A stretch of DNA of 64,000 bases from Dokdonella sp. (GTDB lineage: Bacteria > Pseudomonadota > Gammaproteobacteria > Xanthomonadales > Rhodanobacteraceae): contig NZ_JAHCAQ010000014.1 in assembly GCF_019634845.1 (NCBI RefSeq), forward strand, positions 35,949 through 99,948, in the 5' to 3' direction. This document shows positions 19,212 through 54,850 of the stretch, piece by piece. The notes beneath the pieces are model-generated. The model searched no databases and had not been told where the DNA came from. It saw only the letters and a list, made by a program, of their open reading frames with translations. Position numbers and translations under genes: made by a program. The first letter of the stretch is position 1; each line of letters starts with the position of its first letter.

Positions 19212-19976
19212 TCAGGCGCTGGCGGGCGGATCGAAGATCAGCGGCGGCGTCGAATGCGAGGCGCGGTAGCTGCGCACGACGCTGCCGTAGTGCACCACGC
19301 GGCGGATCGTGTACCAGGTGATGCGCGTGACATCACGCACCGGGCGGAAATGGCTGCCGCGGAATTCGCCGTGGTAGCGCACGTCGATCGGCACCGATAC
19401 CACGCCCAATCCCTGGTCGCGCACCGCGGCAATCAGCAGCGCGGCCTCGAACACGAAATCGTCGGCGGCGAGGTCGGCCAGGTCGAGCGCCGCACGCGGG
19501 TAATAGCGCTGCCCGCTCTGCGTGTCGGCGACCGGGATGCCGCAGCCCCACGAAATGCCCCAGTCGGCCACCGCGTTGGCGCGGCGCCGCGCGCTGGGCT
19601 GGCTGTCCTTGTTGCGGATGCGCGCGCCGATCACGATGTGTTCGGGATGGGCGCGCGCGGCCGCGAGCAGGCGCGGGATGTCCTGGGCCAGGTGCTGGCC
19701 GTCGCCATCCATCGCGATCACGGCGTCGAAGCCCAGTTCGCGCGCCTTGCGAAAGCCGTCGCGCAGTCCCTGGCCCTTGCCGAGCGGACGCGGGTGGCGG
19801 ATCAGCGTGATCGGCAGGTCGGCGATGCACGGCACGGTCGCGTCGCTGGAACCATCGTCGATGACGATGACGTGCGGGCAGATCGCGAGCACCGATTCGA
19901 CCACGCCGCGGATGGCGCGCTCCTCGTTGAGCGCGGGGATGACGACGGCGATGCGATCGGCGCTGGTCGCGCTCAT
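19212..19976 (-). CDS. Glycosyltransferase family 2 (DPM1-like) of the aryl-polyene locus
   Basis: 254 residues. GT-A features include VVIPALNEE at the N-terminus, IDDGSSD, LGKGQGLRDGF and the metal-binding MDGDGQH. It is last in a three-gene minus-strand unit (ketosynthase, chain-length factor, glycosyltransferase) joined by ATGA overlaps. Glycosyltransferases of this type occur in xanthomonadin/aryl-polyene clusters, where one is thought to act on the polyene head group or carrier lipid. No membrane span is visible. Confidence 0.85.
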   Translation of the reverse strand: MSATSADRIAVVIPALNEERAIRGVVESVLAICPHVIVIDDGSSDATVPCIADLPITLIRHPRPLGKGQGLRDGFRKARELGFDAVIAMDGDGQHLAQDIPRLLAAARAHPEHIVIGARIRNKDSQPSARRRANAVADWGISWGCGIPVADTQSGQRYYPRAALDLADLAADDFVFEAALLIAAVRDQGLGVVSVPIDVRYHGEFRGSHFRPVRDVTRITWYTIRRVVHYGSVVRSYRASHSTPPLIFDPPASA

Positions 19977-20719
19977 GGCGTGATCTCGATCTCGAGTTGA
20001 CGGTGGATGCCGGCGGGCAAGGCGAGCGCCGCCGGCTGCTGCAGCGCCAGCGCACGCAGCAGTTCGGCGGCGGTCGCGGTGGCGGTCGCGGTGGTCGCGT
20101 GCTGGCGCAGGCGCAGGCGCGACCCCGCCGCAGCGGGGTCCGGATCGAGCACGAGCGCGAGGGCCTGCGTCGAATCGGCGCCGAGCACGCGCGCGAGCGG
20201 GCCCTCGGCGGCGGCCTCGTAACAGGTGAACAGCACGGGTCGCGATTCGGCGCAGGCGAGCACGGCGGCTTCGAACAGGCCCGCGCCGAGCGTGCCGTGC
20301 CAGGCCGACAGCGCACTCGAGGCCTCGTGGCACTGCGTGGCCAGCGTCCAGTAGCCGACGGCGGCGTTGTGCACCGAGTTGTGGAATCGCGTCGGTGACA
20401 GTGCCAGCGGCTCGCTGGCGAGCGTGGCGCACATGTCGTGCGAGATCGCGACCTCGCCGTGCGCCGAGCTGAACACGCACGGCAGGTCGGCGCCGGCGTG
20501 GCCGGCCATCGCGCAGGCCTGCGCCGCGACCTCGCAGGCGAGCAGCACGGTCAGCGGCGCGCGGCGGCGCTCGCCCTGCGGCAACACGCCGGCCGGCGGC
20601 CGCGCCGCGATGGCGCCGCCAATGGCCTCGCCGCGCAGCCAGGCGCGCAGTTGCGGCCAGTCGCCGCGCTGCGGCCACCAGGCACCGATGCCGGTGATGC
20701 GCAGCTCGAGCGCGTTCAT
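19973..20719 (-). CDS. Beta-ketoacyl synthase-like chain-length factor (ApeC type)
   Basis: 248 residues resembling only the N-terminal half of a ketosynthase (Ketoacyl-synt_2 type; ITGIGAWWP, FSSAHGE, FHNSVHNAAVGYW, CHEASSALSAW). The C-terminal half with the catalytic histidines is missing, as expected for a chain-length partner that pairs with the active ketosynthase encoded directly upstream. Both ends overlap neighbours by ATGA. The gene contains a 12-base tandem duplication at 20070-20093 that encodes part of an Ala/Thr run. Confidence 0.85.
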   Translation of the reverse strand: MNALELRITGIGAWWPQRGDWPQLRAWLRGEAIGGAIAARPPAGVLPQGERRRAPLTVLLACEVAAQACAMAGHAGADLPCVFSSAHGEVAISHDMCATLASEPLALSPTRFHNSVHNAAVGYWTLATQCHEASSALSAWHGTLGAGLFEAAVLACAESRPVLFTCYEAAAEGPLARVLGADSTQALALVLDPDPAAAGSRLRLRQHATTATATATAAELLRALALQQPAALALPAGIHRQLEIEITP

Positions 20720-21909
20720 GCCTGACCCCGCCCGAACACGAGCGCGCAGTTGTTGCCGCCGAAACCGAACGAGTTGCTGAGCGCGGTGCGCAGCGTGCGC
20801 GTCTCGTTGGCCAGTGCCAGTTGCGGCCCGCAGGCGGCCGCAGGCGTGGTGGTGTTGAGCGTGCCGGGCACGCAGCCATGTTCGAGCGCGAGCAGGCACA
20901 GCACGGCCTCGACGATGCCGGCCGCGCCGAGCGTGTGGCCGGTCCAGCCCTTGGTCGAGCTGGCGCGCGTGGTGGGCGGAAACAGCGCCGCGATCACGGC
21001 CGCCTCGACCTCGTCGTTCTTGGCGGTGGCGGTGCCGTGCAGGTTGATGTAGTCGATGTCGGCGGCAGCCAGCCCGGCGCGGGCCAGCGCCGCCTCGATC
21101 GCGAGCCGCGCGCCGAGACCCTGCGGATGCGGCGTCGACATGTGGTGGGCGTCGGAGGACTCGCCATGACCGAGCAGGTGAGGCGCGCCGGGCGGGCCGT
21201 CGCGCTCGAGCAGGACAAAGCCGGCGGCTTCGCCGATCGAGATGCCGTTGCGCTGCGCATCGAACGGCCGGCACGGCTGCGGCGCGACGAGCTCGAGCGC
21301 GTTGAAGCCGAACAGCACGCTGCCACACAACGAATCGACGCCAGCGAGCACCACCGCGTCGGCAAGGCCCAGCCGCAGCAGGCGTTCGCCCTGGGCAAAG
21401 ATCTTCGCGCTCGACGAGCAGGCCGTGGACTGGCTCATGCAGGGGCCGCGCGCACCGATCACGCGCTCCAGCAGCAGGCCGAGCGAGTGCAGCGTATGCA
21501 GTTCCGGCGCCGCCAGGCTGGCCGGAAAGCGATCCCCGGCGAGTTCGCTGTACGCGGCTTCGGTGGCGCCGATGCTTGCGGTCGAGGTGGCCGCGAGCAG
21601 GGCCACGCGCGCTGCGCCGTGGCGCGCGACCGCCGCGCGGGCGGCATCGATGAAGCCATCGCCGTGCAGGCCGAGCCAGGCCAGGCGGTGGTTGCGGCTG
21701 TCGAGGTCGCGCAGTTCAGGCGGCAGGGTGACGTCCTCGATGCCCGCGACGCGACCGACCGCGCACGGCAACGGGCTGCGGGTGAAGTCATTGGCGCGCA
21801 GGCCGCTGCGCCGCTCGCGCAACGCGCGCAACTGCGCCTCGCGGCCGCGGCCGAGCGCGGTCGTGACGGTGGCGGCAGTGATGGCGAGCGGCGGAATCCG
21901 GCAGGGCAC
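20716..21909 (-). CDS. Beta-ketoacyl-ACP synthase of aryl-polyene type (ApeO/ApeR-like)
   Basis: A 397-residue elongating ketosynthase. The full Cys-His-His triad is present: Cys164 (STACSSS), His291 (NLHGTAT) and His325 ([11 protein letters not shown]). The C-terminal NSFGFGGNN motif is intact. Next to an ApeC-type chain-length factor, it is better read as a polyene-forming ketosynthase than as housekeeping FabF. A GATAAT -10-like element lies about 30 bases upstream on this strand. Confidence 0.88.
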
Positions 21910-21938
21910 GTGGACGACACGGCGAAGTCGTGGCCGGC

Positions 21939-21986
21939 ATTATCGCATGGCGCGCGCGCGGCGCCGTGATGCACGCCCGCTACAAT
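21939..21986. promoter_or_regulatory. Divergent -10 elements for the ketosynthase operon and hemF
   Basis: GATAAT read on the minus strand (21939-21944) would serve the ketosynthase gene starting at 21909. TACAAT on the plus strand (21981-21986) would serve hemF starting at 22016. Neither has a clear -35 hexamer, so these are suggestions from position and -10 match. Confidence 0.4.
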
Positions 21987-22015
21987 GCGCGGTCTTTTCC
22001 GGCAGTGGAGGCAGC

Positions 22016-22990
22016 ATGGCCACCGATGGGCAAACCGCAGCCGCCGCGCGGGCCGTGGCGGCGGACCACATCGAAGCCGTGCGCGGCTTCTTCATGGCGC
22101 TGCAGGATCGCATCTGCGCGGCGCTCGAGCAGGCCGACGGCGGGGCGTGTTTCGTCGAGGACGCCTGGCAGCGCGAAGCCCAGCCCGACGGCGGCGCGCT
22201 CAGCGGACTGGGCCGCACGCGCGTGCTCAAGGAAGGCGCCGTGTTCGAGCAGGGCGGCGTCAATTTCTCCGCGGTGTCGGGTCCGCAGATGCCGGCGTCG
22301 GCGACCGCGCACCGGCCCGAACTGGCTGCCGCGCCATGGACCGCGATGGGTGTGTCGCTGGTGCTGCATCCGCGCAATCCCTACCTGCCGACGACCCACA
22401 TGAACGTGCGTTTCTTCCAGGCCCATGTGGACGGCAGTGAGCGCAACTGGTGGTTCGGTGGTGGCTTCGACCTGACGCCGTTCTATCCGTTCGACGAGGA
22501 CGTGCGTCACTGGCACACGGTCGCGCGCGAGGCGGTGGCGCCGTTCGGCGACGATGTGTATCCACGGCTGAAGCAGTGGTGCGACGAATACTTCTTCCTG
22601 CGCCACCGCGGCGAAACGCGCGGCGTCGGCGGCCTGTTCTACGACGACCTCAGTGCCGGCGGCTTCGAGCGCTGCTTCGGCATCACGCGCCATGTCGGCA
22701 ATGGCTTCCTCGACGCCTACCTGCCGATCGTGGCGCGACGCAAGGCGATGGCATGGGGCGAACGCGAGCGCGAGTTTCAGTTGTACCGGCGCGGTCGCTA
22801 TGTCGAGTTCAACCTCGTCTACGACCGCGGCACGCTGTTCGGCCTGCAGTCGGGCGGCCGCGCCGAATCGATCCTCATGAGCATGCCGCCGCGCCTGCGC
22901 TTCGAATACGGCTATACCCCCGCGCCCGGCAGCGCCGAGGCGCGCCTGGCCGATTACCTGCGACCGCGCGACTGGCTGGCCGGCGGCTGA
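22016..22990 (+). CDS. hemF: Oxygen-dependent coproporphyrinogen III oxidase
   Basis: Converts coproporphyrinogen III to protoporphyrinogen IX with O2 in haem synthesis. At 324 residues it is close to E. coli HemF (299). Conserved blocks are [57 protein letters not shown] and the MSMPP region near the end. AGTGGAGG is the Shine-Dalgarno 4 bases before the ATG. The presence of the aerobic enzyme fits a respiring organism. A role in supplying haem to the nearby NirS and cytochromes is only contextual. Confidence 0.97.
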
Positions 22991-23096
22991 CGCGGTCGCT
23001 GGCCGCAGCGCACGCGGCCGCCGCGCTGCGTGCAAGTGGACGCGAGCCCGCCGCACGAGGCACCATGCGTGGTTGCCTTCCCTCGCGCCGGCGCAA

Positions 23097-26000: not shown

Positions 26001-26426
26001 GCGCTGGTGGAGCAGGCCCTGCACGAGCGCAAGCTGCCGCACCAGACCCTGACCGGCGATACACCGGGCACCCAGCGTGCGGCGCTCGTCGAGCGTTTCC
26101 AGCAGGGCGCCGTGCCGCTGTTCCTGATCAGCCTCAAGGCCGGCGGCGTCGGCCTCAACCTGACGGCCGCCGACACCGTCATCCACTACGACCCATGGTG
26201 GAACCCCGCCGTCGAGGCGCAGGCGACGGACCGCGCCCATCGCATCGGTCAGGACAAGCCCGTGTTCGTCTACAAGCTCATCTGCGCCGGCACCGTCGAG
26301 GAAAAGATCCAGGACCTGCAGCAGCGCAAGGCCGAGCTTGCGCGCGCCGTGCTCGAAGGCGGCAGCACGCAGGCGCTGCGTTTCGATGAAAGCGACATCA
26401 GCGAGCTGTTCGCGCCGATGCAGTAG
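23097..26426 (+). CDS. SWIM-domain SNF2/Rad54-family helicase
   Basis: A 1109-residue protein. The N-terminal SWIM zinc finger is CTCPLQAACKH (CxC...CxH) at about residues 80-90. A long middle region follows without motifs I recognise. The SNF2 ATPase core starts at about 640: DDMGLGKT (Walker A), DEAQAIKN (DEAQ box), TGTPLENHLGELW, VFSQFAQML and ISLKAGGVGLNLTAADTVIHYDPWWNPAVEAQA..RAHRIGQ. Such SWIM-SNF2 proteins are widespread and poorly characterised; DNA translocation or remodelling is the likely activity. The ATG at 23097 is preferred over an upstream TTG at 23073. Confidence 0.9.
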   Translation: MDETTFRDLLARHWTALFDPRTLERGADYQRRGLVQELQYKDDVGEGVLIGTVQGSARDPYLAGVRLEWDGGRTRLDSYCTCPLQAACKHVAATILQELRATTETPAAGGAVAPPQLGAWKTWLDTLRGDAGESATDAAVAGTQSVCAILLRSDGSQPLPALQAQIVRVQPGKHGGYATPQPLQPSWADPEPWRGLDATTFQLVAGLRMRAPAFGGSGGWFRLANQADEPLVDTLLASLPCFFDKVSAGRVAPGPARALRIGWEARDDGTQKLALSVDGAPRARLLKVGHLWYFDAAGRELGRVDGDVRLAEAVLRAPPLLPEQVPLLMERWRDTPLLAALPRPAEPVVEKLRAAPVPVLALRVVSAFAAPGRSYQAGVARLSFDYGGLRLPMFPAPARERRRQGERVVEVARDRAREGAAIEQLEALGLVPAEMRASLRGLPAQAIDDNDFVLVQARSQIAGADQLFALAPRLRELGFRLESGEGFPFELLDAPDGWQFDIDEGAGNAWFDLRLGIDIGGERIDLLPVLHRLLADPLFPLNARKGEAGDATWLVPIDARRRMPLPLTQLRALIAPLLEWLQGPLHEHDGALRLRRAQSDVVEALAPALPKPWRGGERLRAQIERRQQPRPAMAEPVGLRTTLRPYQHDGLAWLGFLADAGLGGILADDMGLGKTVQLLAHLLAEKHNGRLDRPALVLAPTSLVGNWRAEAARFAPDLKVLVVHGPQRHGLHDEMARHDLVITTYPLLLRDHAQLIAQPWSVLVLDEAQAIKNARSRAARLVREIDARQRIAMTGTPLENHLGELWALFDAVEPGLLGDEKHFARFFRTPIEKHADAERQARLNRRIAPLMLRRRKEDVLSELPAKTEIVRRIELEGRQRELYETLRLAQHQRVVEEMRRRGLAQSGIVVIDALLKLRQICCDPRLVKLERARKVNDSAKLDHLVEMLDSLLAEGRRVLVFSQFAQMLALVEQALHERKLPHQTLTGDTPGTQRAALVERFQQGAVPLFLISLKAGGVGLNLTAADTVIHYDPWWNPAVEAQATDRAHRIGQDKPVFVYKLICAGTVEEKIQDLQQRKAELARAVLEGGSTQALRFDESDISELFAPMQ

Positions 26427-26449
26427 CGCGGCGCCGCGCCGCGCACCGT

Positions 26450-26455
26450 TACAAT
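26450..26455 (+). promoter_or_regulatory. -10 element abutting the uvrD start codon
   Basis: TACAAT ends 6 bases before the uvrD ATG. If used, transcription would start at or within a base or two of the A of the ATG, giving a leaderless mRNA. No -35 match and no Shine-Dalgarno sequence is visible. Confidence 0.4.
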
Positions 26456-26461
26456 CGCGCG

Positions 26462-28690: not shown

Positions 28691-28873
28691 GCCCCGTCAT
28701 GCGCTGCCGCCGTCGGATGCACGGCAGCGGCAGGGATGCGCGCATGGCGGACTCCATGCGCAGCGCCGGGCCGGTCAGCGCCAGGCTGGGCCGAATGCGG
28801 CGCAACGGCACCGCATCGTCGGCGCCGGTTGCGATGCGGTTGCCGCGGCGGTCACGCCATGCGCTGCGGCCAC

Positions 28874-28902
28874 AAAAAAACGGCGCCGTTGCCGGCGCCG
28901 TT
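28874..28902 (-). terminator. Rho-independent terminator of the Ser/Thr kinase gene
   Basis: Read on the minus strand: an ACGGCGCC arm, a short loop, the GGCGCCGT arm and then a run of T. It lies 24 bases after the kinase stop. On the plus strand the same hairpin has no T-run, so it mainly serves the kinase gene. Confidence 0.88.
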
Positions 28903-28925
28903 GGTCATCAAGCGGGATTGCACGA

Positions 28926-30863: not shown

Positions 30864-31123
30864 GGCATTCCTCCGAAGCGACGCCTTGCAAGTGGGAGGG
30901 TTGCCTTGCAGTGCCGCTGCGGGCATCCCCCGGCGGCCCCATCCGCGAGCAGCGCCGAAATGGCGCTGGCGGCGGGTACCGTTGCGGTGAATCCTACACC
31001 GCGCCCATGCGGCGATGTCCGGAACCCTTCGACCCCGGCTTGTGCGCCTGCATCACGGCCAAAGCGTGATGCATTGGGCACTCCGGGGCACGCGCCGGCG
31101 ACCGGCGTTGCTGCCGCTGCTCG

Positions 31124-31942
31124 TCAGGGCAGCGCCGGCAGGGCCAGCAACAGCGCCCCGAGCACGATCCGGTACACCGCGAATGGGGTGAAGCGGTGCC
31201 CGCGGATGTAGCCGAGCAGCCACCTGACGGTGGCGAAGCCGGTGACGAGCGAGACCGTGAAGGCGAGTGCGAGCGCCCCCCAGTCCTCGTGCAGGCCGTC
31301 GTGTCCGATCGCCTTGTACAGTTCGTAGCCGCTGGCCGCGAACATCGTCGGGATGCCGACGAGGAAGGCGAACTCGGTGGCCGCGGCGCGGTTGTTGGCG
31401 CCGGCCAGCATGGCGATGAAGATCGTGGCGGCCGAACGCGAGGTGCCCGGGAACACGCCGGCTACCACCTGGGCCAGGCCGACCAGCACCGCCACGCGCC
31501 AACTGATCGCGGCATGCTCGGGCCGCCGCCCGGCCAGCCACTCGGCGGCGAGCATCCACACCCCGCCGAGGATCAGTGCCCAGGCGATCGGCGCCACCGT
31601 TTCGGGCAGCTTGAAGCCGCCCCTGGCGACGATGAAGCCAAGCACGCCGGTGATGAGGAATGCCACGCCGAGCTTGAATGCGTAGTCGCGGTTGGCGCGT
31701 TGGGCAAGGCCGGTCGCCAGTTGCCACAGGCGTTCGCGGTAGATCAGCGCGACGGCGAGGATCGCGCCGGCCTGGATCACCACGTTGAAGACATCCGAGC
31801 GCGCGCCGAGCCAGTGTTCGGCGATCAGCAGGTGGCCCGTGCTCGAGATCGGCAGGAATTCGGTGACGCCTTCGATGAGGCCGAGCAGCAGCGTGGCGGC
31901 GAGGTCGGACACGGCCAGTCCTGGAGCGGTGGAATCGTCCAT
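31124..31942 (-). CDS. uppP: Undecaprenyl-diphosphatase UppP (BacA)
   Basis: Dephosphorylates undecaprenyl diphosphate to recycle the peptidoglycan carrier lipid. The 272-residue inner-membrane protein has about 8 spans. Both signature motifs are present: the N-terminal EGVTEFLPISSTGHLLI and the internal PGTSRSAATI. The ATG at 31942 was preferred to a GTG at 31957 because it gives the usual short N-terminus. It is divergent from glnA. Confidence 0.96.
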   Translation of the reverse strand: MDDSTAPGLAVSDLAATLLLGLIEGVTEFLPISSTGHLLIAEHWLGARSDVFNVVIQAGAILAVALIYRERLWQLATGLAQRANRDYAFKLGVAFLITGVLGFIVARGGFKLPETVAPIAWALILGGVWMLAAEWLAGRRPEHAAISWRVAVLVGLAQVVAGVFPGTSRSAATIFIAMLAGANNRAAATEFAFLVGIPTMFAASGYELYKAIGHDGLHEDWGALALAFTVSLVTGFATVRWLLGYIRGHRFTPFAVYRIVLGALLLALPALP

Positions 31943-37522: not shown

Positions 37523-38248
37523 TCAGCCCATGCCACCATTGATGCCGATGACCTGGCCGTTGATGTAGGCGGCTGCATCCGAGCACAGGAAGGCGACGAG
37601 CGCGGCGACCTCGTCGGGCCGGCCCATGCGCGCCGCCGGCACCATCGCCTTGAGCTGTGCCTCATCGAACAGGTCCTGGCTCATGCGCCCGGCGATCACA
37701 CCCGGCGCGACCACGTTGGCGCTGATCCCGCGCGAGGCCATCTCGCGCGCCAGGCAGCGCACGGCACCGTGCAGGCCGGCCTTGGCCGCCGCGTAGTTGG
37801 CCTGGCCGCGGTTGCCGAGCACGGCGGCAACCGACGACAGCGCCACCACGCGGCCCCAGCGCTGGCGCGCCATCGTCAGCAGCAGTGGCTGGCTGACGTG
37901 GAAGAAGCCATGCAGCGAGACGTCGATGACGCGTCGCCACTGCGCTTCCTGCATGCCGGCCAGCGGTGCATCGTCGTGGATGCCGGCGTTGTGGACGAGG
38001 ATGTCGATGGCGCCGTCGGCAAGCTCGGCTTCGAGCGCAGCGCGCGTGGCGGCGCCATCGGCGAGGTCGAAGCACACCGCGCGGGCCTGCCCGCCGGCGG
38101 CGTGGATGGCCTCGACCACCGCCTGCGCGCGCTCGGGCGCGCTGTGCGCGTGCACGAGCAGGGCGCAGCCGCGCGCCGCCAGCTCGCGCGCGATCGCCGC
38201 GCCGATATCGCCGCTGCCTCCCGTGACCAGTGCGCGTCGTTGCCTCAT
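37523..38248 (-). CDS. 3-ketoacyl-ACP reductase of aryl-polyene type (ApeQ/FabG-like)
   Basis: A 241-residue SDR. Cofactor motif TGGSGDIG at 9-16, NAG at 87-89, catalytic Ser139, Tyr152 and Lys156, and C-terminal YINGQVIGINGGMG. All features match FabG. The GGMG ending and short length are shared with the ketoreductases of xanthomonadin/aryl-polyene clusters. It stands alone between a repair operon and a peptidase, on the same strand as the other aryl-polyene genes and in the position expected between ApeP (48.1-48.6 kb) and the ketosynthase (20.7-21.9 kb). Confidence 0.82.
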   Translation of the reverse strand: MRQRRALVTGGSGDIGAAIARELAARGCALLVHAHSAPERAQAVVEAIHAAGGQARAVCFDLADGAATRAALEAELADGAIDILVHNAGIHDDAPLAGMQEAQWRRVIDVSLHGFFHVSQPLLLTMARQRWGRVVALSSVAAVLGNRGQANYAAAKAGLHGAVRCLAREMASRGISANVVAPGVIAGRMSQDLFDEAQLKAMVPAARMGRPDEVAALVAFLCSDAAAYINGQVIGINGGMG

Positions 38249-38279
38249 GTCCGCTCCATCGCTTCGCCGCGTGGCGGCC

Positions 38280-40379
38280 TCACCACACCTTCACGCGCTG
38301 CGCCGGCTCCAGATACAGCGCCTGGCCGGGCTGCACATCGAAGGCCGGATACCAGGCGTCGAGGTTGCGCACCGTGAGTGCGCGGTACTGGCCCGGCGCA
38401 TGCACATTGGTCAGCAGCGCATTGCGCAGCGCGGCTTCGCGCATCTTGCCGCGCCAGGCTTGCGCCCAGCCGAGGAACAGGCGTTGCGGCGCAGTGAAGC
38501 CTTCGAGCGCTGCACCCGGATCCGGATGGGCGAGCTGGTAAGCGTCGAAGGCGGTGGCGAGGCCGGCCACGTCGGCGATGTTCTCGCCCAGGGTCAGCTT
38601 GCCGTTGACCGCGAGGTCGGGCAATGGCCGGTAGTTGTCGAACTGCGCGGCCAGCGCGGCGCCGGCGGCCTCGAAGTGCTCGAGATCCTGCGCCGTCCAC
38701 CAGTTGGCGAGCTTGCCGGTCTCGTCGAACAGCGCGCCCGAGTTGTCGAAACTGTGGCTGATCTCGTGACCGATCACGGCACCGATCGCGCCGTAGTTGA
38801 CCGCGTCGTCCGCCGCGCCATCGAAGAACGGCGCCTGCAGAATCGCGGCCGGGAAGATCAGGCGGTTCTCCAGTGGCACGTTCAGCGCGTTGACGGTCTG
38901 CGGCAGCATGAACCACTCGCCGCGGTCGATCGGCCGGCCCAGCTTGGCGAGGTTGCGACGGTATTCGAACAGGCTCGCGCGCCGCGCATTGCCGAGCGCG
39001 TCGTCGCGCCGCGCCTCGAGCGCGCCGTAGTCGCGCCAGTGCTGCGGATAACCGACCTCGACCTTGAGGCCGGCGAGCTTGGCCCGTGCGCGCTGCTTGG
39101 TCTGCGCGCTCATCCACTCCAGTTTGTCGATGCGGCCACCGAACGCGGTGACGAGGTTGGCCACCATCGCCTCGGCGCGTTGCTTGGTCGGCGCCGAAAA
39201 ATGCCGCGCGACATAGATGCGGCCGACCGCATCGCCGAGCGCATCGTTGACCTCGTCGACGGCGCGCTTCCAGCGCTCGCGCTGCTGCGGGGTGCCGGCC
39301 AGTGCGGTGCCGTGGAACGCGAAGTGGGCCTCGGCGAACGCCTTGGGCAGGTAGCTGGCGGCGTCGTCGATCGCGTGGAAGGCGAGCCAGTCCTGCCAGG
39401 CGCGCAGCGGCTGCGCCGCCACCAGCGCGGCGATGCCGCTGACCGCGGCCGGCTGCCAGACGATGAACTCGGGTTGCCGGCCGAGGCCCGCCGCAGCGAA
39501 GTACGCGGCCCAGTCCAGCCCCGGTGCGCGGCGCGCAAAGTCGGTGATGCGCCAGGCGTTGGCGCCCTTGGCGACGTCGTTGGTTTCGAGCTGGCTCGCA
39601 TGTACGCGCGCGATCGCGGTCTCGAGCGCGAGGATGCGCTGCGCGCGCGCCGCGCCGTCGGCGATCCCGGCCAGCTCGAACAGTTGCGCGATGTAGGCCG
39701 CGTACTGCGTGCGCAGCTCGGCCATGCGACCGCCTTCGAGGTAGAAATCGCGGTCGGGCATGCCCAGCCCGCCCTGCACCAGATACGGCGCATATTCGTT
39801 CGGGCGCAGCAGGTTCGGCGCGACCCACAGGCCAAACAGGTTCGGCGTGTAGTAGTCGGTGGCGTTGAGCAGGTCGACGTCGGCCCGCAATGCCGCGCCG
39901 AGCGCCTTGGCCAGCGCATGCTTGTCGGCGATGGCCTCGATCGCGGCGAGACTCGGCCGCAGCGGTGCGAGGCCCTTGGCCTCGATGCCGGCCTCGTCCA
40001 TGAAGGCGGTGTACCAGGCACCGATGCGGGCTTCGTCGCCCGCCGCAGCGGTGTTGCCGGCGGCGGCCTCGAGGATCGCGCGGGTGTCGCTCAGGGCGCG
40101 TTCGCCGAGCGTCGAGAAGCTGTTCCAGCTCGAGCGGTCGGGCGGAATCTGCACGGACTGCAGCCAGCCGCCGTTGGCGTAGCCATAGAAGTCGTCACCC
40201 GGCGTGAGACTGCGATCCATGCCGGCGGTATCGAAGCCGAAGCTGCCCAGTGCCGGCGCGGCCGCGGGAGGCGTCGCGGCGGTTGGCGCCGCTGCATCCG
40301 GCGCCGGTGGCGTCGCATGGTCGCAGGCGCCCAGGGCGATGCTCAGGGCCAGGCACAGCAGGCGCAGCGGATGGGACAT
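38280..40379 (-). CDS. M13 family metallopeptidase (neprilysin/PepO-like), lipoprotein
   Basis: A zinc endopeptidase of 699 residues. The signal ends in a lipobox (IALGAC), so the mature protein is probably membrane-anchored. Family features: FYGYANGGWL near the N-terminus, HExxH at 538-542 (GHEISHSFD), the third zinc ligand Glu599 (GENIADVAG) and the PGQYR/VKVW C-terminal region. Upstream open sequence without a signal was ignored. It is divergent from the M14 peptidase gene. Confidence 0.95.
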   Translation of the reverse strand: MSHPLRLLCLALSIALGACDHATPPAPDAAAPTAATPPAAAPALGSFGFDTAGMDRSLTPGDDFYGYANGGWLQSVQIPPDRSSWNSFSTLGERALSDTRAILEAAAGNTAAAGDEARIGAWYTAFMDEAGIEAKGLAPLRPSLAAIEAIADKHALAKALGAALRADVDLLNATDYYTPNLFGLWVAPNLLRPNEYAPYLVQGGLGMPDRDFYLEGGRMAELRTQYAAYIAQLFELAGIADGAARAQRILALETAIARVHASQLETNDVAKGANAWRITDFARRAPGLDWAAYFAAAGLGRQPEFIVWQPAAVSGIAALVAAQPLRAWQDWLAFHAIDDAASYLPKAFAEAHFAFHGTALAGTPQQRERWKRAVDEVNDALGDAVGRIYVARHFSAPTKQRAEAMVANLVTAFGGRIDKLEWMSAQTKQRARAKLAGLKVEVGYPQHWRDYGALEARRDDALGNARRASLFEYRRNLAKLGRPIDRGEWFMLPQTVNALNVPLENRLIFPAAILQAPFFDGAADDAVNYGAIGAVIGHEISHSFDNSGALFDETGKLANWWTAQDLEHFEAAGAALAAQFDNYRPLPDLAVNGKLTLGENIADVAGLATAFDAYQLAHPDPGAALEGFTAPQRLFLGWAQAWRGKMREAALRNALLTNVHAPGQYRALTVRNLDAWYPAFDVQPGQALYLEPAQRVKVW

Positions 40380-40562
40380 GGTCACTCTCGCAGGGGTGGC
40401 AGGCTGCGAGCGTAGGCGGGCGCGGCCCGCGCGACAACGTGCCGATGGTCCTGCACCGGGTATCGCGCGCGACGCTGCGCCGCAACATGCGGCGGACCGC
40501 GTGCGCGCCGCTGCCGCCTGCCCGCGAGGGCTTATGATCGCGTCTTTTGCGGGGAGACCACG

Positions 40563-43491: not shown

Positions 43492-43614
43492 AGGCAAAGC
43501 CGTTGCGCCTCGCGCGGTGCCAAAGCCGCTTTCCGTGGGCACGGCTTCAGCCGCGAACATGACGCGGCGCGGCGGCAACGGTGGTGACCGCGATCGGTCC
43601 CTCCGCTGTCGCCA

Positions 43615-43648: not shown

Positions 43649-43671
43649 TGGCAACCAACACTGCAGCGCGA

Positions 43672-48146
<4,475 letters not shown>

Positions 48147-48175
<29 letters not shown>

Positions 48176-48593
48176 TGACCGCCGCGCGCCCGCGCGCGAG
48201 CAGAAGGCCGGCGTGCTCGACGCGGAACGCATACTGCCAGTGGCCATCGCCGCCGAGCAGGTGCTGCGCATGCACCTCGAGGGCCGCATCGATGTCGTCG
48301 ATGCGGGCGCGGTGCAGCTCCACCTCGCGCAGCGACACCAGATAGCCCGGCGTGGCGACGCGCCCCTGCGCGCGCGCGAGCAGGCCGCCATGGATCGCCA
48401 TCGCCTGCGCGCCGTACTCGCACAGGTGCAACGCGCGCAGCATGCCGTCGCTGCGCAGCGGGTTGTCGGTGCGCGCATGCGAGTGCGTGCGGGCGTGGAT
48501 CGTGGCCGCGTCCCAGGCGATGACTTCGTCGAGCAGGCACATCGCACCCGCATGCGGAATCAGCGTGGCCCACTGTGGGCGCGGCAGGCTCAT
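48147..48593 (-). CDS. ApeP-like 3-hydroxyacyl-ACP dehydratase (hotdog fold)
   Basis: A 148-residue hotdog protein. The motif LIPHAGAMCLLDEVIAWD is the start seen in ApeP-type dehydratases of aryl-polyene clusters, followed by RALHLCEYGAQAMAIHGGL, which forms the central helix. It would dehydrate 3-hydroxyacyl-ACP during polyene elongation. The start overlaps the MMPL exporter stop by ATGA. The last 29 bases run antisense into the TonB receptor gene. Confidence 0.85.
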
Positions 48594-50905
48594 GGCTTGC
48601 CGCGCGCCATCAGGATCGACAGGCAGAAATGGAAGCCGACGCCAAGCGCGACGGTCAGCCCGATCGCGCGCAGCACCGGCAGCGAGGACAGCGCCTGCAG
48701 GCCGAACACGAGCAGCGCGGCGAGCACGCACACGAGCGTGGCATGCAGCGTGCGCCGCGCATCGGCCGCATCGCGCGGACGCTGCTCGAAGAACAGCGCA
48801 TAGTGCAGGCCGAGGCCAGCCGCGAGCGTGACCGCGACGAGGTGGAACAGCGACAGCGGGATGCCGGCGGCACGCTCGACCACGACCACGAGCAGCGTCG
48901 CCAGCGTCATCGGTGCCAGCACATGCCAGGCCCGGCGCAGGCTGCGCAGGGCGATGGCCACCGTCAGCGCGAGCAGCAGCAGGGCCACGCCGAGCGCGCG
49001 CAGGATGCGCTCGCGATAGGCGGCCACCAGCGACTCGGAGGCGGCCTTGAGGTCGATGAGGCGCACCGCGCCGGCGGTCGACTGCGCCCAGTGCTGCAGC
49101 GCCGCCGCGTCGTGCACGCCCGTCAGCGTGGCCAGCGCCAGACTGGTGTCGCCGCGGCGCACGAGCATCGCAGCCAGGCGCGCTCCGAACGGACTGCTGG
49201 CGAACGCCTGCGGCGTGAGTGGCGCGAGTTCGCGCGCGGTCTCCACGTCGTCGACGAACGGCTCGAACAGGCCCTGCCGGAACGGCAACCCGTCGCTGGC
49301 GGCCGCCAGCGCGGCCTCGAGCGCGGCGCGCGCGGGCAGGCGCGCCTGGCGCGCGCGCTGGGTGGCAAGGCTCGGCAGATAGCGGCTCGGCAGTTCCACG
49401 CCGTCGAGGGCGCCGCGCGCGACCAGTGCCTCGAGCGGTGCCTGCAGGCGTTCGGACAGCGCCAGCACGGCTTCGTCGTCGTTGCCCTGCAGCACGAGCA
49501 GGTAGCGCACGTCGGGCGCGCCGAGTTCGGCGCGCAACTGCGCGTCGCGTGCGAGCCACTGCGCCGGCACCGGGGTGAGTGCGGCGAGATCGTTCTGCCA
49601 CAGCGGGCCGGGCGCGCGCCACAGGATCACGCCACCGGCCAGTGCGAGCAGCCACGGCAGCCAGCGCAGGCGCGGCACGCGCTCGAGCAGTGCGCTCGCG
49701 CGGGCGAGCCCCGGGAGCGTGGCCACGTCGCGAAAGCGCCTCGGCAGCGCGCGCGGCAGCAGATGGCGCGTGGCCAGCCCGGCCGCGAGCAGGCCCGCGA
49801 TCGTGAACAGCGCCAGCTGCTGCAGACCGGGCACGCCCGAGGCGAAGAACGCCAGATAGGCGATCGCCGCCGACACGATCGCGGTGGCCAGCAGCGGCCA
49901 CAGCGCGCGCACGCTGGCCAGCGCGTCCTCGCCGGCGCGGCGGTGGCTGAGCACGCGCAGCGGATACTCCTGTGCCACGCCGAGCAGGGTGAAGCCGAAC
50001 GCGAGCGTGATGCCATGCGCCTGTCCGTACCACAGCGCGAGTGCGGCCAGTCCCGCCAGCGCGCCGGTCGCGACCGGCAGTGCGCCGAGCAGCAACGCGG
50101 GCAGGCTGCGGTAGGCGACGAGCAGCAGCACGATGAAGCCGAGCGTGCTGGCCGCGCCGAGGCGGTCGGCCTCGCCGCGCGTGCGGGCATCGATCTGCAT
50201 GCTGAACCAGCCGGGACCACTGATCTCGAGCCGCGCCTCGCCGCGCGCGGGCAGCGCCGCGAACGCGGCTTGCAGCGCTGTGATCGCGTCGCGTTGCGCA
50301 GCCGGGTCGAATCCCGCCGCGCGCGTCTGCGCGAGCAGCAGTGCGGCGCCGTCGCTGGCGAACCACACGCCGTCGTGCAGCGCGGGCATCTTGGGTGGGG
50401 CCCAGCGCTGTGCGAGGTTGAGCGTCTCCAGGGTCGGATCGCGCGCGAGCCAGGGCTTGAGCAGCGTCGCCGCCGGCGAGGCCAGGTCGGCGGCACGCTG
50501 CTCGAGCGCATCGCGCAGCCAGGCCGCGTCGAAGGCCTGCCGATCGAGCGTCGGCGTGAGCAGCCAACGGTAGGGCAGCCACGGCGATGGAATCGCAGCG
50601 GCGTCGAGCGCGCCGTTGAAAGCCTGCTCGAATCGCGCGTCACCGCGCAGCCAGGCCAACAGTCCGCGGCTGAGCTGCGCCAGCGTGGCCTCGTCGGCGC
50701 CCTCGATGGCAAGCAGCAACAGGCGCGAGGCCGGGCCATCGCCGATCTGGTCCATCACCAGTTGCTGGTCGGCCGTGCGCGGCGGCGGCATGAAGCTGCG
50801 CAGGTCGGTGCCGATGCGCAGCTGGCGCCAGGCGAGCGCGCCCAGTGCGGCGAGCGCGAGCAGCCACAGTGCGAGCAGCAGGGTGCGAGGTGGCTCAACG
50901 CGCAT
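48590..50905 (-). CDS. MMPL/RND-family exporter of the aryl-polyene locus (ApeM-like)
   Basis: A 771-residue inner-membrane protein with an RND-like duplication. One N-terminal span is followed by a large periplasmic loop (about 30-245) and five spans. A second periplasmic loop (about 400-600) and the remaining spans follow. Such predicted exporters in xanthomonadin and aryl-polyene clusters are thought to move the polyene lipid to the outer membrane together with a LolA-like carrier, which is encoded 9 bases upstream here. Confidence 0.85.
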   Translation of the reverse strand: MRVEPPRTLLLALWLLALAALGALAWRQLRIGTDLRSFMPPPRTADQQLVMDQIGDGPASRLLLLAIEGADEATLAQLSRGLLAWLRGDARFEQAFNGALDAAAIPSPWLPYRWLLTPTLDRQAFDAAWLRDALEQRAADLASPAATLLKPWLARDPTLETLNLAQRWAPPKMPALHDGVWFASDGAALLLAQTRAAGFDPAAQRDAITALQAAFAALPARGEARLEISGPGWFSMQIDARTRGEADRLGAASTLGFIVLLLVAYRSLPALLLGALPVATGALAGLAALALWYGQAHGITLAFGFTLLGVAQEYPLRVLSHRRAGEDALASVRALWPLLATAIVSAAIAYLAFFASGVPGLQQLALFTIAGLLAAGLATRHLLPRALPRRFRDVATLPGLARASALLERVPRLRWLPWLLALAGGVILWRAPGPLWQNDLAALTPVPAQWLARDAQLRAELGAPDVRYLLVLQGNDDEAVLALSERLQAPLEALVARGALDGVELPSRYLPSLATQRARQARLPARAALEAALAAASDGLPFRQGLFEPFVDDVETARELAPLTPQAFASSPFGARLAAMLVRRGDTSLALATLTGVHDAAALQHWAQSTAGAVRLIDLKAASESLVAAYRERILRALGVALLLLALTVAIALRSLRRAWHVLAPMTLATLLVVVVERAAGIPLSLFHLVAVTLAAGLGLHYALFFEQRPRDAADARRTLHATLVCVLAALLVFGLQALSSLPVLRAIGLTVALGVGFHFCLSILMARGKP

Positions 50906-50914
50906 CGACGCCGC

Positions 50915-51568
50915 TCACCGCTTGAGTCCGCGGCACAGCGCATCGAGCTGGCCCAGCGTCACGCGCGGTGCCAGCGGCGTGGCGGCGAGCGCACCGACCA
51001 GCAACACGCTTTCATCACCATCGGCCTCGCGCGTGCGGAAGCAGGTCGGTTCGCTGCCGCTGCCATCGACGCGCAGCCATTGCACGCGCCGCGCCAGGCG
51101 CGCATCGCGCGGCTCGAGTCGAAGCTGCCAGTGCGCCGCGTTGCCCGAGGCGCTCAGGCTGAAGTCGCGCGCGAGTGCGGCGGCGTCACCGCCGAGCAAG
51201 GCCGAGAACCCACGCAGGAAACTGTCGAGCTCGGGCACCTGCGCCAGCGGCAGGCTGCGCGCCGGCCGGTCGCCACGTTGCAGGCTCGCGTTGCCGCCAT
51301 CGACCGCCGTCAATTCGCGCCAGGGCGTGTCGACGCGCTTGGCGAGCTTGCCGGGGCCGAGGTACTGCATTTCGCCGCGCAGGATCAGCGGTCGTTCGAG
51401 CAGGCCGGAATAGCGCACCTCGACATAGGCGGTGACGGCCGGCACCTCGCGTTTGAGCGCGGCGACCAGCGCGGTTGCATCGGGGGCGGCGTCAGGCGCG
51501 GCCAGGGCTGTCGGCGCCAACGCCAGCAGCAGCGGCCACGCCACGCCCTTCGGGATTCCAGAAATCAT
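50915..51568 (-). CDS. LolA-like periplasmic carrier of the aryl-polyene locus
   Basis: 217 residues with a signal peptide (GVAWPLLLALAPTALA, cleavage before about residue 24). The mature part has the antiparallel-strand pattern of LolA-like lipoprotein carriers (YSGLLERPLILRGEMQYLGPGKLAKRV, then FLRGFSALLGGD). It probably shuttles the hydrophobic polyene across the periplasm in partnership with the MMPL exporter. Its first 77 bases overlap the end of the acyltransferase gene, an unusually long same-strand overlap. A later ATG is not obvious, so the start is tentative. Confidence 0.75.
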   Translation of the reverse strand: MISGIPKGVAWPLLLALAPTALAAPDAAPDATALVAALKREVPAVTAYVEVRYSGLLERPLILRGEMQYLGPGKLAKRVDTPWRELTAVDGGNASLQRGDRPARSLPLAQVPELDSFLRGFSALLGGDAAALARDFSLSASGNAAHWQLRLEPRDARLARRVQWLRVDGSGSEPTCFRTREADGDESVLLVGALAATPLAPRVTLGQLDALCRGLKR

Positions 51569-52445
51569 GCCAGTTGAACCAGTTGCAGGGGTCTTGTCGC
51601 ACATGGTGTTCGAGCCGTGCCGCGTAGGCCTGCGCCAGCGCCTGCACCGCTGCCGTGCGCTCGCCGCGGCCGACCGGCAGCGCATCAGCCAGTGGCTCGA
51701 AGTACAGATCGTAGCGGTTGCCGCCACGATACATGCCCAGGCACAGCACGACCGGCACCTTGAGGATGCCGCCCAATGCGAACGGCGCCACCGGCAGCGG
51801 CGCCGGCGCACCGCAGAAGTCGACCATCACGCAGCGTTCGTCGGCGCGTGCGCGATCGGCCAGCAGGGCGATCAGCGCACCTTCGGCAGCGGCTTCGGAC
51901 AGTGCCAGCACGATCTCGGTGGGCGGCCGGCCGGCGTCGATCACGCCATGGCCGATGGCCGGGTTGAGTGCATGCAGCAGCGCGGTCTGCGCCGGCGTCT
52001 TGTGGGTGTCGAGCACGACGCGCAGCTTGACCTCGGGATGTGTGAGCGTGGCCACGCGCAGCACCTCGAAACTGCCGACGTGGGCGCCCAGCAGCAGCAC
52101 GCCACGGTCGGGTTGCATGCGCGTGACGAGCTCGTCGAGGCCGTGCATGCGCACGTCGAAGCGGGTGTAGCGGTCCGACAGCAGGAAGACGCGGTCGAGC
52201 AGCGTGCTGGCGAAGCGGTGGATGTGGCACATGACGCGCCACGCCGATGGACGCCGACCCTCGATGCGATCGAGCGCGGCGTACGACACGCGGCGCTCGT
52301 AGGGGCGCCGCAGGAAGAAATACAGCGTGATCGGATACAGGCACAGCCGCGCCACCGGCCGCCCGAGCCGCAGCGCGATCGTGCGGATCAGCCAGATCGC
52401 AACGCGGCCACCGCCTTCCCTGCGCTCGCGCCAGTGCTCGCTCAT
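51492..52445 (-). CDS. LpxL/HtrB-type lysophospholipid acyltransferase of the aryl-polyene locus
   Basis: 317 residues with an N-terminal membrane-associated segment. The catalytic block is GVLLLGAHVGSFEVLR, an HxxxxE-like acyltransferase motif (H-V-G-S-F-E). It is followed by [34 protein letters not shown], which resembles the second LpxL block. It presumably esterifies the polyene acid to a glycerolipid or carrier. It overlaps ApeI by ATGA and the LolA-like gene by 77 bases. Confidence 0.85.
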   Translation of the reverse strand: MSEHWRERREGGGRVAIWLIRTIALRLGRPVARLCLYPITLYFFLRRPYERRVSYAALDRIEGRRPSAWRVMCHIHRFASTLLDRVFLLSDRYTRFDVRMHGLDELVTRMQPDRGVLLLGAHVGSFEVLRVATLTHPEVKLRVVLDTHKTPAQTALLHALNPAIGHGVIDAGRPPTEIVLALSEAAAEGALIALLADRARADERCVMVDFCGAPAPLPVAPFALGGILKVPVVLCLGMYRGGNRYDLYFEPLADALPVGRGERTAAVQALAQAYAARLEHHVRQDPCNWFNWHDFWNPEGRGVAAAAGVGADSPGRA

Positions 52446-52738
52446 GCCAGCGCCGCCGTGCCGCGCAGCACCACGCGACCGTCGTGCAGCAGGCGAAAGC
52501 GCAGCTGCGTGGCGTCGCGTTCGATCTCGCAGTCGAGCGCCTGCCCCGGCAGCACCGGGGCAAGGAACTTGACCGCCTCGATGCGCGCCAGCGGCCCCAG
52601 GCCGGCGCGCGCGAGCACGCTGGCGATGCGGTCGAGCAGCACCACGCCAGGGACCACCGGCTGTCCCGGGAAATGGCCGGGCAGGCTCGGATGGTCGGCG
52701 TCGATGCACAGGCGCTCGCGCAGCACGTCGGCGGTCAT
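52442..52738 (-). CDS. ApeI-like 3-hydroxyacyl-ACP dehydratase (hotdog fold)
   Basis: 98 residues. HPSLPGHFPGQPVVPGVVLLD carries the hotdog catalytic His of the FabA/FabZ type in GHFP, and IEAVKFLAPVLPGQ is the second strand. The short length matches ApeI dehydratases, which work alongside ApeP in polyene formation. ATGA overlaps on both sides tie it tightly to the membrane-protein and acyltransferase genes. Confidence 0.85.
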   Translation of the reverse strand: MTADVLRERLCIDADHPSLPGHFPGQPVVPGVVLLDRIASVLARAGLGPLARIEAVKFLAPVLPGQALDCEIERDATQLRFRLLHDGRVVLRGTAALA

Positions 52739-53460
52739 GGCGCGTCCCGCGGCGTGTCATCGAGTGCACTGCGCAGCAGCGCCGGCCACTGCCGCACGAT
52801 CGCGACGAGGAAGGTCGCCAGCGCGGGGTGGGCGAGGCCGCGCAGGTGCCAGCGCCGGTAGCCGTATTCGCCGGCGAGCAGGGCGCCGACCACGACCCCG
52901 CTGCCCACGTGCAGGTAAGCGCGCCAGGCCGCCGCGCCGAGCGCGGCCGGGCCGATGCCGACCTGCGCCAGTGCGATCGCGCCGAGCAGTGCAGCCTGCG
53001 CGCCGAGCACGAGCGCCCAGCATGCGGTGAGTCCGCGCGCATAGGTGGCCACGCGCGGTTCGGCCAGCCGCTGCGGCCCTTCGAGGATCGCGATGAAGCG
53101 TGCGATGAGCGGCGCGCGCCCGCGCCGCAGGCTGCGCGCGAACAACAGGCACAGCGCGCCATTGATGAGCGCCGGCACGGCATCGACGAGCAGCCAGCCC
53201 ATGCCGTGCCAGGCCGCGGCGACGGCGGCGAGCGCGGTCGCGGCGAATGCCCACCAGGCGCGGCGCGCACCGCGGCACAGGGCCGGTGCCAGCGCGCCGC
53301 CGGCCAGCACGACCACGGCCAGCGCGGCGAGGTCGTCGCGTTCCAATTGCGCGGCCAGCAGCACGAGCACGATGTAGAGGACGATCGCGCCGAGCAGCGC
53401 GCGGCCACGCCGCGGCGTCGGCGTGATGGTTCCGGAACCGGGCAGGCTGGCGGCACTCAT
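52735..53460 (-). CDS. COG4648-type membrane protein of the aryl-polyene locus (ApeG-like)
   Basis: 241 residues with five or six hydrophobic segments, including LLGAIVLYIVLVLLA near residue 25 and others near 50, 75, 140 and 170. Family-like stretches are PALINGALCLLFARSLRRGRAPLIARF and RVATYARGLTACWALVLG. Proteins of this kind sit between the ACP and the ApeI dehydratase in aryl-polyene clusters; their role is unknown. The start at 53460 is 31 bases after the ACP stop. Confidence 0.78.
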   Translation of the reverse strand: MSAASLPGSGTITPTPRRGRALLGAIVLYIVLVLLAAQLERDDLAALAVVVLAGGALAPALCRGARRAWWAFAATALAAVAAAWHGMGWLLVDAVPALINGALCLLFARSLRRGRAPLIARFIAILEGPQRLAEPRVATYARGLTACWALVLGAQAALLGAIALAQVGIGPAALGAAAWRAYLHVGSGVVVGALLAGEYGYRRWHLRGLAHPALATFLVAIVRQWPALLRSALDDTPRDAP

Positions 53461-53491
53461 GCGTGGAAGCCGTGGCCGGCGCGCCGCGCGC

Positions 53492-53788
53492 TCAGCTCGC
53501 GCCGCGGTGCTGCTCGATGTGCGCCGACAGCGCGCGCAGGCTGGCGAAGATCTGCTTGTTGTCGGGATTGTCCGAGCGCAACTGGAAGCCATAACGCTTG
53601 GACACCGCCAGTGCGAGCTCGAGCGCATCGATCGAGTCGAGGCCAAGTTCGCCGCCGCCGAACAACGGCGCCTCGGGCGCGATCGCCTCGGGCTTGATCC
53701 AGTCGATGTTGAGGCTGGCGACGATGAGGCGGGCCAGATCCTGCTCGGCCGGCGACTGCGTGGACTCGGGGCAGTGGGTCGTATCCAT
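53492..53788 (-). CDS. Acyl carrier protein of the aryl-polyene locus
   Basis: 98 residues with the phosphopantetheine site GLDSIDALE (Ser52) and an ACP helix pattern. It is first in the minus-strand block ACP / membrane protein / ApeI / acyltransferase / LolA-like / MMPL / ApeP. It is divergent from xanB2. Many clusters encode two ACPs here; I see only one. Its partner in chain extension should be the ketosynthase at 20.7-21.9 kb. Confidence 0.92.
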   Translation of the reverse strand: MDTTHCPESTQSPAEQDLARLIVASLNIDWIKPEAIAPEAPLFGGGELGLDSIDALELALAVSKRYGFQLRSDNPDNKQIFASLRALSAHIEQHRGAS

Positions 53789-53884
53789 GAGATTGGGGCG
53801 GCCGATGGCGCGGGTTGGACAATCGGGCAGTGTATCATCCGCGGCCGTTTTGACCGCGTTTGCGCCCCCCGCGCCGTTGCCCCG

Positions 53885-54850
53885 ATGAATCACGCCACGC
53901 CACCATTGCCAGCGCTGGAGCAGTGTTACGAGCAGGCCGATGTGGGCACGCTGCTCGCCGACGCGCGCGTGCTGGCGGTGATCGGTTTCGGCAGCGGCTT
54001 CGCTGCCGCTGACGATCCGCGCGTGGTGCGCGTCGCGCTCGAACCACTGGCCGCGCCCTGCGTGGAGGTATGGCGCGGGCGCGCCCCGGTGCGGCATGGG
54101 CGCGCGGGCGACCTGCGCTGGAGCAGCGACGGCGATTACCTGTTCGTGGCGATCGAGGTGGCCGAGGTCGATGGCGACATCGAGCGCGCCAGCCACGACG
54201 CCTACCGGCAGTTGCTGGCCTTCGTGCAGGCCAGCGCCACGCCGCACTGGCTGCGCCTGTGGAACTATTTCGATGCGATCAATGCCGGCGTCGGCGATGC
54301 CGAACGGTATCGGCGATTCTGCGCAGGACGTGCGCGTGGCATGGCGCAATGGCTGGCCGGCAGCTATCCGGCCGCCTGCGCGATCGGCCATCAGGTCGCG
54401 AGCGGGAACCTGCTCGTCTACGGTCTGGCCGCGCGCGAGCCCGGCACGCGCGTCGAGAATCCGCGCCAGCTCAGTGCCTGGTGCTATCCGCGCCAGTACG
54501 GCCCGAGCGCACCGACCTTCGCGCGGGCGCTGCGCAGCGCGGCCGGGCAGTTCTTCATCTCCGGTACCGCGGCCGTGGTCGGGCATGCCTCGCAGCACGA
54601 GCAGGACCTGGCCGCACAGCTCGCCGAAACCTTCACCAACCTCGAGCACCTGCTGGCGGCCGCGCATGGCCGCTTCGGCACCGATGCCCTGCTCAAGGCC
54701 TATGTGCGTGAGCGCGACGATGGCGCCGCGGTGGCGCATGCGCTCGCGCAGGCCGTGCCAGGCCATGCGGGCGCGCTGATCCTTGGCGGTGACATCTGCC
54801 GCCGTGAACTGCTGGTGGAAATCGATGGCCTGCAGTCACTGGCGCGCTGA
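53885..54850 (+). CDS. xanB2: XanB2-type chorismatase (FkbO/Hyg5 family)
   Basis: 321 residues. In Xanthomonas XanB2 hydrolyses chorismate to 3- and 4-hydroxybenzoate, the former a xanthomonadin precursor and the latter a ubiquinone precursor. The family is recognised by GFGSGFAAADDPRVVRVALEP-like N-terminal sequence, the ASATPHWLRLWNYFDAIN core and the C-terminal ISGTAAVVGHASQH and QLAETFTNLEHLL blocks. It is divergent from the ACP gene across 96 bases that contain TATCAT at 53833-53838. There is no clear Shine-Dalgarno. It overlaps the cytochrome c gene by 26 bases. Confidence 0.9.
   Translation: MNHATPPLPALEQCYEQADVGTLLADARVLAVIGFGSGFAAADDPRVVRVALEPLAAPCVEVWRGRAPVRHGRAGDLRWSSDGDYLFVAIEVAEVDGDIERASHDAYRQLLAFVQASATPHWLRLWNYFDAINAGVGDAERYRRFCAGRARGMAQWLAGSYPAACAIGHQVASGNLLVYGLAAREPGTRVENPRQLSAWCYPRQYGPSAPTFARALRSAAGQFFISGTAAVVGHASQHEQDLAAQLAETFTNLEHLLAAAHGRFGTDALLKAYVRERDDGAAVAHALAQAVPGHAGALILGGDICRRELLVEIDGLQSLAR

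Follow-up and report, generated by a model that had tools for sequence, protein, structure and literature searches.

How did the genes of one pigment pathway come to lie in three separate places on the same contig, with other genes between them? The question is raised by a 64,000-nucleotide stretch of a Dokdonella genome (the window; positions 35949–99948 of contig C6 of the genome under study, G000), which carries genes of the aryl-polyene/xanthomonadin type, a class of yellow membrane pigments, in three islands. A preliminary description of the window read the islands as standing in the order expected of one intact cluster, and proposed either that an ancestral cluster had been pulled apart without rearrangement or that the islands were reassembling. 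Comparison with related genomes suggests, with a probability of roughly 0.8, that the islands belong to one pathway whose compact, two-operon cluster was dispersed by chromosomal rearrangement within the genus.

The G000 assembly (3.26 Mb in 27 contigs) is ~90% complete. We searched for four markers (ApeC, the MMPL exporter, the ketoreductase [KR] and xanB2) in 61 genomes, labelled here by G numbers, and fetched 40 regions for layout; 16 genomes of the genus, including G000, were compared.

One pathway in three islands and a candidate fourth place

Family assignments are from Pfam and NCBIfam profile scans and structure matches from a search of the PDB. On this evidence, the three islands are one aryl-polyene/xanthomonadin-type pathway. 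The genes for the ketosynthase (KS) and the ApeC-like chain-length factor are adjacent, and the best PDB matches of their products are chains A and B of one complex, 6qsp, which we take to be the ApeO:ApeC complex. The KS retains the motifs CSSS, LHGTAT and GH. The lone KR is 64–74% identical to the KRs of clusters in other genera, and no other protein in G000 matches it at E 1e-50. The window also holds a dedicated acyl carrier protein (ACP) and a XanB2 for hydroxybenzoate supply (PF21168), although the latter scores 194.5 bits against NCBIfam TIGR04444, under the cut-off of 325. Similarly, the ApeI-like model gives the FabZ-like dehydratase 27.0 bits against a cut-off of 28.5. All searches within G000 for ApeC (E 1e-3), MMPL (E 1e-20) and xanB2 (E 1e-10) returned a single match each, and this ~90%-complete genome yielded no second cluster. 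The preliminary description had named two findings that would tell against it: a second contiguous cluster, which is what these searches failed to find in G000, and a KR and KS of ordinary fatty-acid synthesis, in place of which the results favour the aryl-polyene pathway.

Contiguity is usual for aryl-polyene type II polyketide synthase (PKS) genes, but is not needed for the chemistry. G000 lacks the usual contiguous cluster and has instead three islands in the window and a candidate ligase on another contig. Gene calls and family scans place the islands' genes where the preliminary description had put them (Table 1). Every pathway gene that it named as minus-strand lies on that strand; xanB2, at the head of island 1, is on the plus strand. 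The membrane protein that it called COG4648 is present at its place, but Pfam and NCBIfam give no support for the label.

The ligase usually present is, as had been described, absent from the window. A candidate nevertheless exists elsewhere in G000: a 452-amino-acid AMP-binding protein at 73.2–74.5 kb of contig C23, beside polA and yrdC. It is one of seven AMP-binding matches in G000 and the only one that was compared with loci of relatives, where it had orthologues. The comparison, which leaves out G002, G004 and G005, places the orthologue ~4–14 kb from hemF, past DUF2782 and polA and sometimes past intervening genes, in 10/10 other genus genomes read for hemF and the ligase (G003, G006, G007 and G009–G015). 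In G048 and G050, the orthologue adjoins xanB2. Contig C23 of G000 retains the old hemF flank, yrdC-ligase-polA-DUF2782. Given that the orthologues lie on the polA side of hemF, the candidate ligase appears to have remained there with polA as the KS block acquired new neighbours. We propose this protein as the pathway's candidate starter ligase, which would put pathway genes at four places at least in G000. The AMP-ligase Xcc4015 is reported to be essential for the Xanthomonas pigment (PMC3949708).

A 2965-amino-acid open frame at G000:C25:112950-121837 has KS and AMP-binding matches and adjoins a second AMP-binding gene. It looks like a separate locus of the PKS/nonribosomal peptide synthetase type.

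Gene order in relatives and the ancestral layout

As reconstructed from relatives, the compact ancestral cluster is two convergent operons. The first runs KS, ApeC, glycosyltransferase (GT), divergent from hemF, and may continue into genes for a Na+/H+ exchanger and halogenase-like proteins (assigned by Pfam). The second faces it, so that KR, ApeP, MMPL, LolA, the acyltransferase, ApeI, the membrane protein and ACP follow in that order on the opposite strand; beyond ACP lies xanB2, reading outward, with an optional second halogenase-like gene between the two. The convergent layout was seen in seven genomes outside the genus, one of which, G031, has ~9 kb of other genes between its operons. Contiguous clusters are present in other genera and families. 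Where KR and ApeC lie within 25 kb of each other, they are on opposite strands in 12/14 outside genomes and in 9/10 genus genomes, the sole genus exception being G000. MMPL and KR are within 1.5 kb of each other in 15/17 outside genomes (exceptions, G039 and G055), and in 0/14 genus genomes. These are counts of related genomes and hence not of independent events.

The distance and strand counts omit low-identity matches: 12/56 for ApeC (28–34% identity), 12/53 for MMPL (11 at 30–33%, and a second fragment in G033) and 21/52 for KR (56% identity or less). For xanB2, which the counts do not need, 21/51 were left out, so an “NA” there does not mean absence. G001 (80% complete) and G008 (86% complete), in which no KR or ApeC was found, are outside the 14-genome MMPL-KR count.

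It is possible to imagine instead an intact, co-oriented cluster that was split when other genes inserted into it, its order and strands being preserved. The minus-strand islands do stand in the order expected from a parts list, and the gene for an M13 peptidase, together with others, did insert between ApeP and KR. However, the KS operon faces KR in most of the genomes just counted, and hemF, which this explanation counts among the inserted genes, normally lies next to the KS operon in divergent orientation and moved along with it. We therefore regard insertion into a co-oriented cluster as very unlikely. The hemF-KS-ApeC-GT block (19.2–23.0 kb) is inverted relative to KR in G000, and for this reason the same-strand appearance of the window is a by-product rather than conserved collinearity. 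The idea that an ancestral cluster was pulled apart holds up, given the contiguous clusters of other genera and families, the orthologous KR and KS, and the lack of a second cluster in G000. The order “expected of one intact cluster” does not, since the KS operon of relatives is on the opposite strand and faces KR; nor does the claim that rearrangement was not involved, since the block is inverted and has new neighbours.

Separate KS blocks also occur outside the genus. In G020, a different contig carries the block, and in G023 it lies at a distance of ~400 kb; it is adjacent to hemF in both. In G039, it is >1 Mb from the remaining pathway genes.

Dispersal within the genus

The genus offers several degrees of separation. 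All four markers lie inside ~17–24 kb in G006, G010, G011 and G012, with an MMPL-KR gap of 5–11 kb. In G007, G009, G013, G014 and G015, KR is with the KS operon and the ACP-to-exporter operon is detached, at a distance of 61 kb (G007) or 229 kb (G013) or on a separate contig. The exporter operon, KR and the KS operon are at three places in G004 and G005; G003 is too fragmented for its arrangement to be classed. The hemF-KS-ApeC-GT block is away from the KR side in G000, G002, G004 and G005. These four share a derived junction, and a second one was found in G000 and G002 (Table 1). In the genus members other than these four, hemF is followed by DUF2782 and polA, in some with intervening genes. 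The four form a clade with ultrafast bootstrap support of 100 in a tree of 12 taxa and 13 genes (6846 columns, much missing data; one of 14 chosen proteins, present in three genomes only, was omitted), and they group together with support of 79 in a nine-gene tree of pathway genes and hemF.

Synteny shows that KR has been separated from ApeP within the genus; that the hemF-KS-ApeC-GT block has, in the four genomes, left the KR side and joined ogt tail to tail, and in G000 is inverted relative to KR; and that a 22-kb segment, located between KR and hemF in the nearest relative, is elsewhere in G000.

The ApeP-KR gap holds the M13 peptidase gene and other genes, and the gap genes are also found in G002. 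In the window (37523-40385), the lone KR gene of G000 starts 31 bp after the M13 peptidase gene, and the two predicted genes overlap by 4–7 bases in G004, G005 and G009. This looks as though a new transcription unit had taken KR over.

The idea that the KS block inserted into a single intact spacer beside ogt is unsupported: in the nine genus genomes searched besides G004, ogt is on a different contig from the helicase and kinase genes that now lie beyond hemF, or at least 27 kb from them (nearest in G014). The regions fetched around ogt were searched for the reciprocal breakpoint with genes that flank KR in G004, and none was found.

The gap between KR and hemF is 14.5 kb in G000, compared with ~38 kb in G002, where it spans two contigs whose link is inferred from the collinearity of both tails with contig C18 of G000. 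In G002, the kinase gene is separated from the BacA gene by a ~22-kb segment that is found on C18 and the start of C27 in G000; in G004, much of it is beside the kinase gene. Islands 2 and 3 are thus closer in G000 than in its nearest relative because this segment sits elsewhere. Could the islands be drawing together again, with their present closeness as a step in reassembly? The shorter gap is what such a process would give, and absence of the segment did shorten it. Nonetheless, this is a single event in one draft assembly, the strands have not been restored, the ligase is on another contig, and nothing shows selection for shortening; we consider reassembly extremely unlikely. Some gene families of the 22-kb segment (f27–f32) are found downstream of ApeP in G009 and G014.

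Assembly misjoins were considered and rejected for the GT-ogt junction, which occurs in three other assemblies, and for the ApeP-KR gap, whose genes recur in G002. The junction at window positions 31069-31134, where the 22-kb segment is missing, was seen in G000 alone among the genomes compared, and misassembly is possible there.

Several observations weigh against dispersal of a compact two-operon cluster as a history of one pathway. KR and ApeC are on one strand in two outside genomes, G045 and G055, and in nine more outside genomes with MMPL and ApeC within 4 kb of each other no KR was found at 59% identity or above. The compared genomes are mostly drafts. The protein at the ApeP position and the membrane protein had no match in the Pfam and NCBIfam scans. 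No ligase was found around xanB2 or hemF, within the stretches examined, in G016, G020, G024, G027, G029, G031, G037 and G058. The four-genome group is not recovered from the three genes that all five key genomes possess (nodes, 55–60), and a KS-ApeC-GT tree places G000 and G002 with G011, whose arrangement is the older one (support, 92). If the latter tree is right, either G011 has undergone a reversal of the shared junction or the junction arose by parallel events. The three-gene and single-gene trees are weak and mutually discordant, and the KR-only tree is unresolved. This conflict leaves the odds of dispersal by rearrangement unchanged because that claim rests on synteny.

Table 1. Pathway genes of the islands, the accompanying hemF, and derived junctions, by window position
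Feature	Position	Strand	Basis or distribution
Derived tail-to-tail junction between ogt and GT genes	19197-19211		Common to G000, G002, G004, G005
GT2 family glycosyltransferase (GT), island 3	19212-19976	-	PF00535; downstream of ApeC in relatives
ApeC-like chain-length factor, island 3	19973-20719	-	PF13723; PDB 6qsp_B, E 8.3e-12
Ketosynthase KS (ApeO-like), island 3	20716-21909	-	NCBIfam PRK09185 over cut-off; best PDB match 6qsp_A
hemF, moved together with island 3	22016-22990	+	PF01218; divergent from KS in relatives
Derived junction between hemF and SNF2 helicase gene	22991-23096		Also in G002
Lone ketoreductase KR (ApeQ-like), island 2	37523-38248	-	NCBIfam PRK05653.1-5 over cut-off
ApeP-position dehydratase-like protein, island 1	48147-48593	-	Orthology and position
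MMPL exporter, island 1	48590-50905	-	PF03176
LolA-like carrier (LolA_3), island 1	50915-51544	-	PF19574
LpxL-type acyltransferase, island 1	51492-52445	-	PF03279
ApeI/FabZ-like dehydratase, island 1	52442-52738	-	PF07977
Membrane protein between ACP and ApeI, island 1	52735-53460	-	Position and orthology
Acyl carrier protein ACP, island 1	53492-53788	-	PF00550, NCBIfam PRK09184; GLDSIDALEL
XanB2-like chorismatase, head of island 1	53906-54850	+	PF21168 over cut-off; PDB 5ag3

The genes in the gaps are as previously described: M13 and M14 peptidases, cytochrome cd1, a TonB receptor, SNF2, UvrD and MrfA-like helicases, a Ser/Thr kinase, BacA, glutamine synthetase and hemF. The repeats mentioned for one gap are not notable, as the whole window shows 12 arrays of short units with at most 3.7 copies. 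The cytochrome cd1-type protein (43672-46287) gains extra cytochrome c domains from a longer start (871 amino acids, versus 687 as called). Beyond island 3 (17155-19196), a 486-amino-acid protein that combines Ada zinc-binding, AraC-type and AlkA domains adjoins an O6-methylguanine methyltransferase, and this alkylation-repair pair now neighbours the pigment GT gene. The xanB2 matches in G019 and G050 each contain one in-frame TGA.

Retention and significance of the dispersed pathway

What is the functional state of the scattered genes? The window contains twelve pathway genes, all of them open. Ratios of nonsynonymous to synonymous substitution (dN/dS, NG86) were 0.09–0.65 in 35 gene comparisons of G000 with G002, G004 and G011, ApeP being absent from the G004 loci used. 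Values for KR (0.15–0.23) and KS (0.20–0.22) are close to those for hemF (0.18–0.26), and ApeI, ApeC and the membrane protein have the highest values of the pathway. An ApeP orthologue is found in 15/16 genus genomes, even far from MMPL in G004, G005 and G007. Open genes, these dN/dS values, and retention of ApeP where it is detached argue for function in trans, which we predict for the pathway. Alternatively, the genes could be decaying relics of a disused pathway, scattered for want of selection. Loss of the halogenases and exchanger, and the higher dN/dS of ApeI, ApeC and the membrane protein, are consistent with decay. Yet the genes remain open, KR and KS are evolving at about the slow pace of hemF, and KR, ApeC and ApeP are retained in relatives even where detached, all of which makes decay distinctly unlikely.

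The search for halogenases (PF04820, E 1e-8) gave matches in 10/16 genus genomes; that for the Na+/H+ exchanger of the cluster (E 1e-30) did so in 9/16. Neither was found in G000 (~90% complete), G002, G004 or G005; the incomplete G001 and G008 likewise gave no match to either, and G014 none to the exchanger. Lack of both in the four species with the moved block leads us to predict that their pigment is unbrominated. In the proposed pathway, XanB2 would make hydroxybenzoate, and the unlinked ligase on C23 would load it on ACP. KS and ApeC would elongate the chain, KR with ApeI and ApeP would form the polyene, and the acyltransferase, LolA and MMPL proteins would place the unbrominated pigment in the outer membrane, the products of scattered genes presumably acting together in trans.

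The chemistry is already known. The 17-open-reading-frame cluster of Lysobacter enzymogenes OH11, for a xanthomonadin-like aryl polyene, was tested by gene deletions (PMC3691225). Like G000, it has a XanB2-like enzyme, ACP, two dehydratases (putative in G000), an acyltransferase, a LolA-like protein, an exporter, KR, a chain-length-factor-like protein, KS and a dolichyl-phosphate-mannose-synthase-like gene, with no halogenase; its description names no ligase in the cluster and reports that a thioesterase is missing, and an unbrominated pigment is proposed for Lysobacter (PMC3691225). In contrast to the single OH11 cluster, the genes of G000 form three islands spread over 36 kb, the KS block being inverted with respect to KR, and the candidate ligase is on another contig. 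The apeA-R genes of E. coli share the ACP, ApeI, acyltransferase, LolA-like, resistance-nodulation-division exporter, KS, ApeP, KR and ApeC functions (ApeI and ApeP being putative in G000), but form a single 18-gene cluster with the ligase ApeH and thioesterase ApeK, and their gene table has no XanB2 (PMC8253772); the G000 genes are scattered and include XanB2. There is a precedent for unlinked genes: the arcuflavin genes of Azoarcus sp. BH72, which include a XanB2-type enzyme and an AMP-ligase, are at physically unlinked loci (two in BH72; PMC3949708). Arcuflavin differs in being a hybrid pigment of a betaproteobacterium, and we saw no graded within-genus series in the portion of that account available to us (PMC3949708). 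A literature search of titles and abstract openings found no description of such dispersal in this group. The G000 arrangement is a dispersed variant of a known system.

Un-clustering may also be a trend, in which the pathway is “domesticated” into housekeeping neighbourhoods (KR behind the M13 peptidase gene, KS with hemF, the ligase with polA, and halogenation lost in one group) and behaves as core metabolism, for which linkage is neither needed nor kept. We regard this as a tentative and rather doubtful extension.

Mining tools that seek contiguous clusters are expected to split or miss a dispersed pathway, and the distribution of halogenases predicts which species make unbrominated pigment. 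The main interest lies in the graded natural series within one genus, which begins at ~17–24 kb, passes through islands and ends with pieces separated by tens to hundreds of kb; the orthologues are retained. Such a series bears on why pathway genes stay clustered, and the genus offers a natural test of whether pathway genes need to be neighbours.

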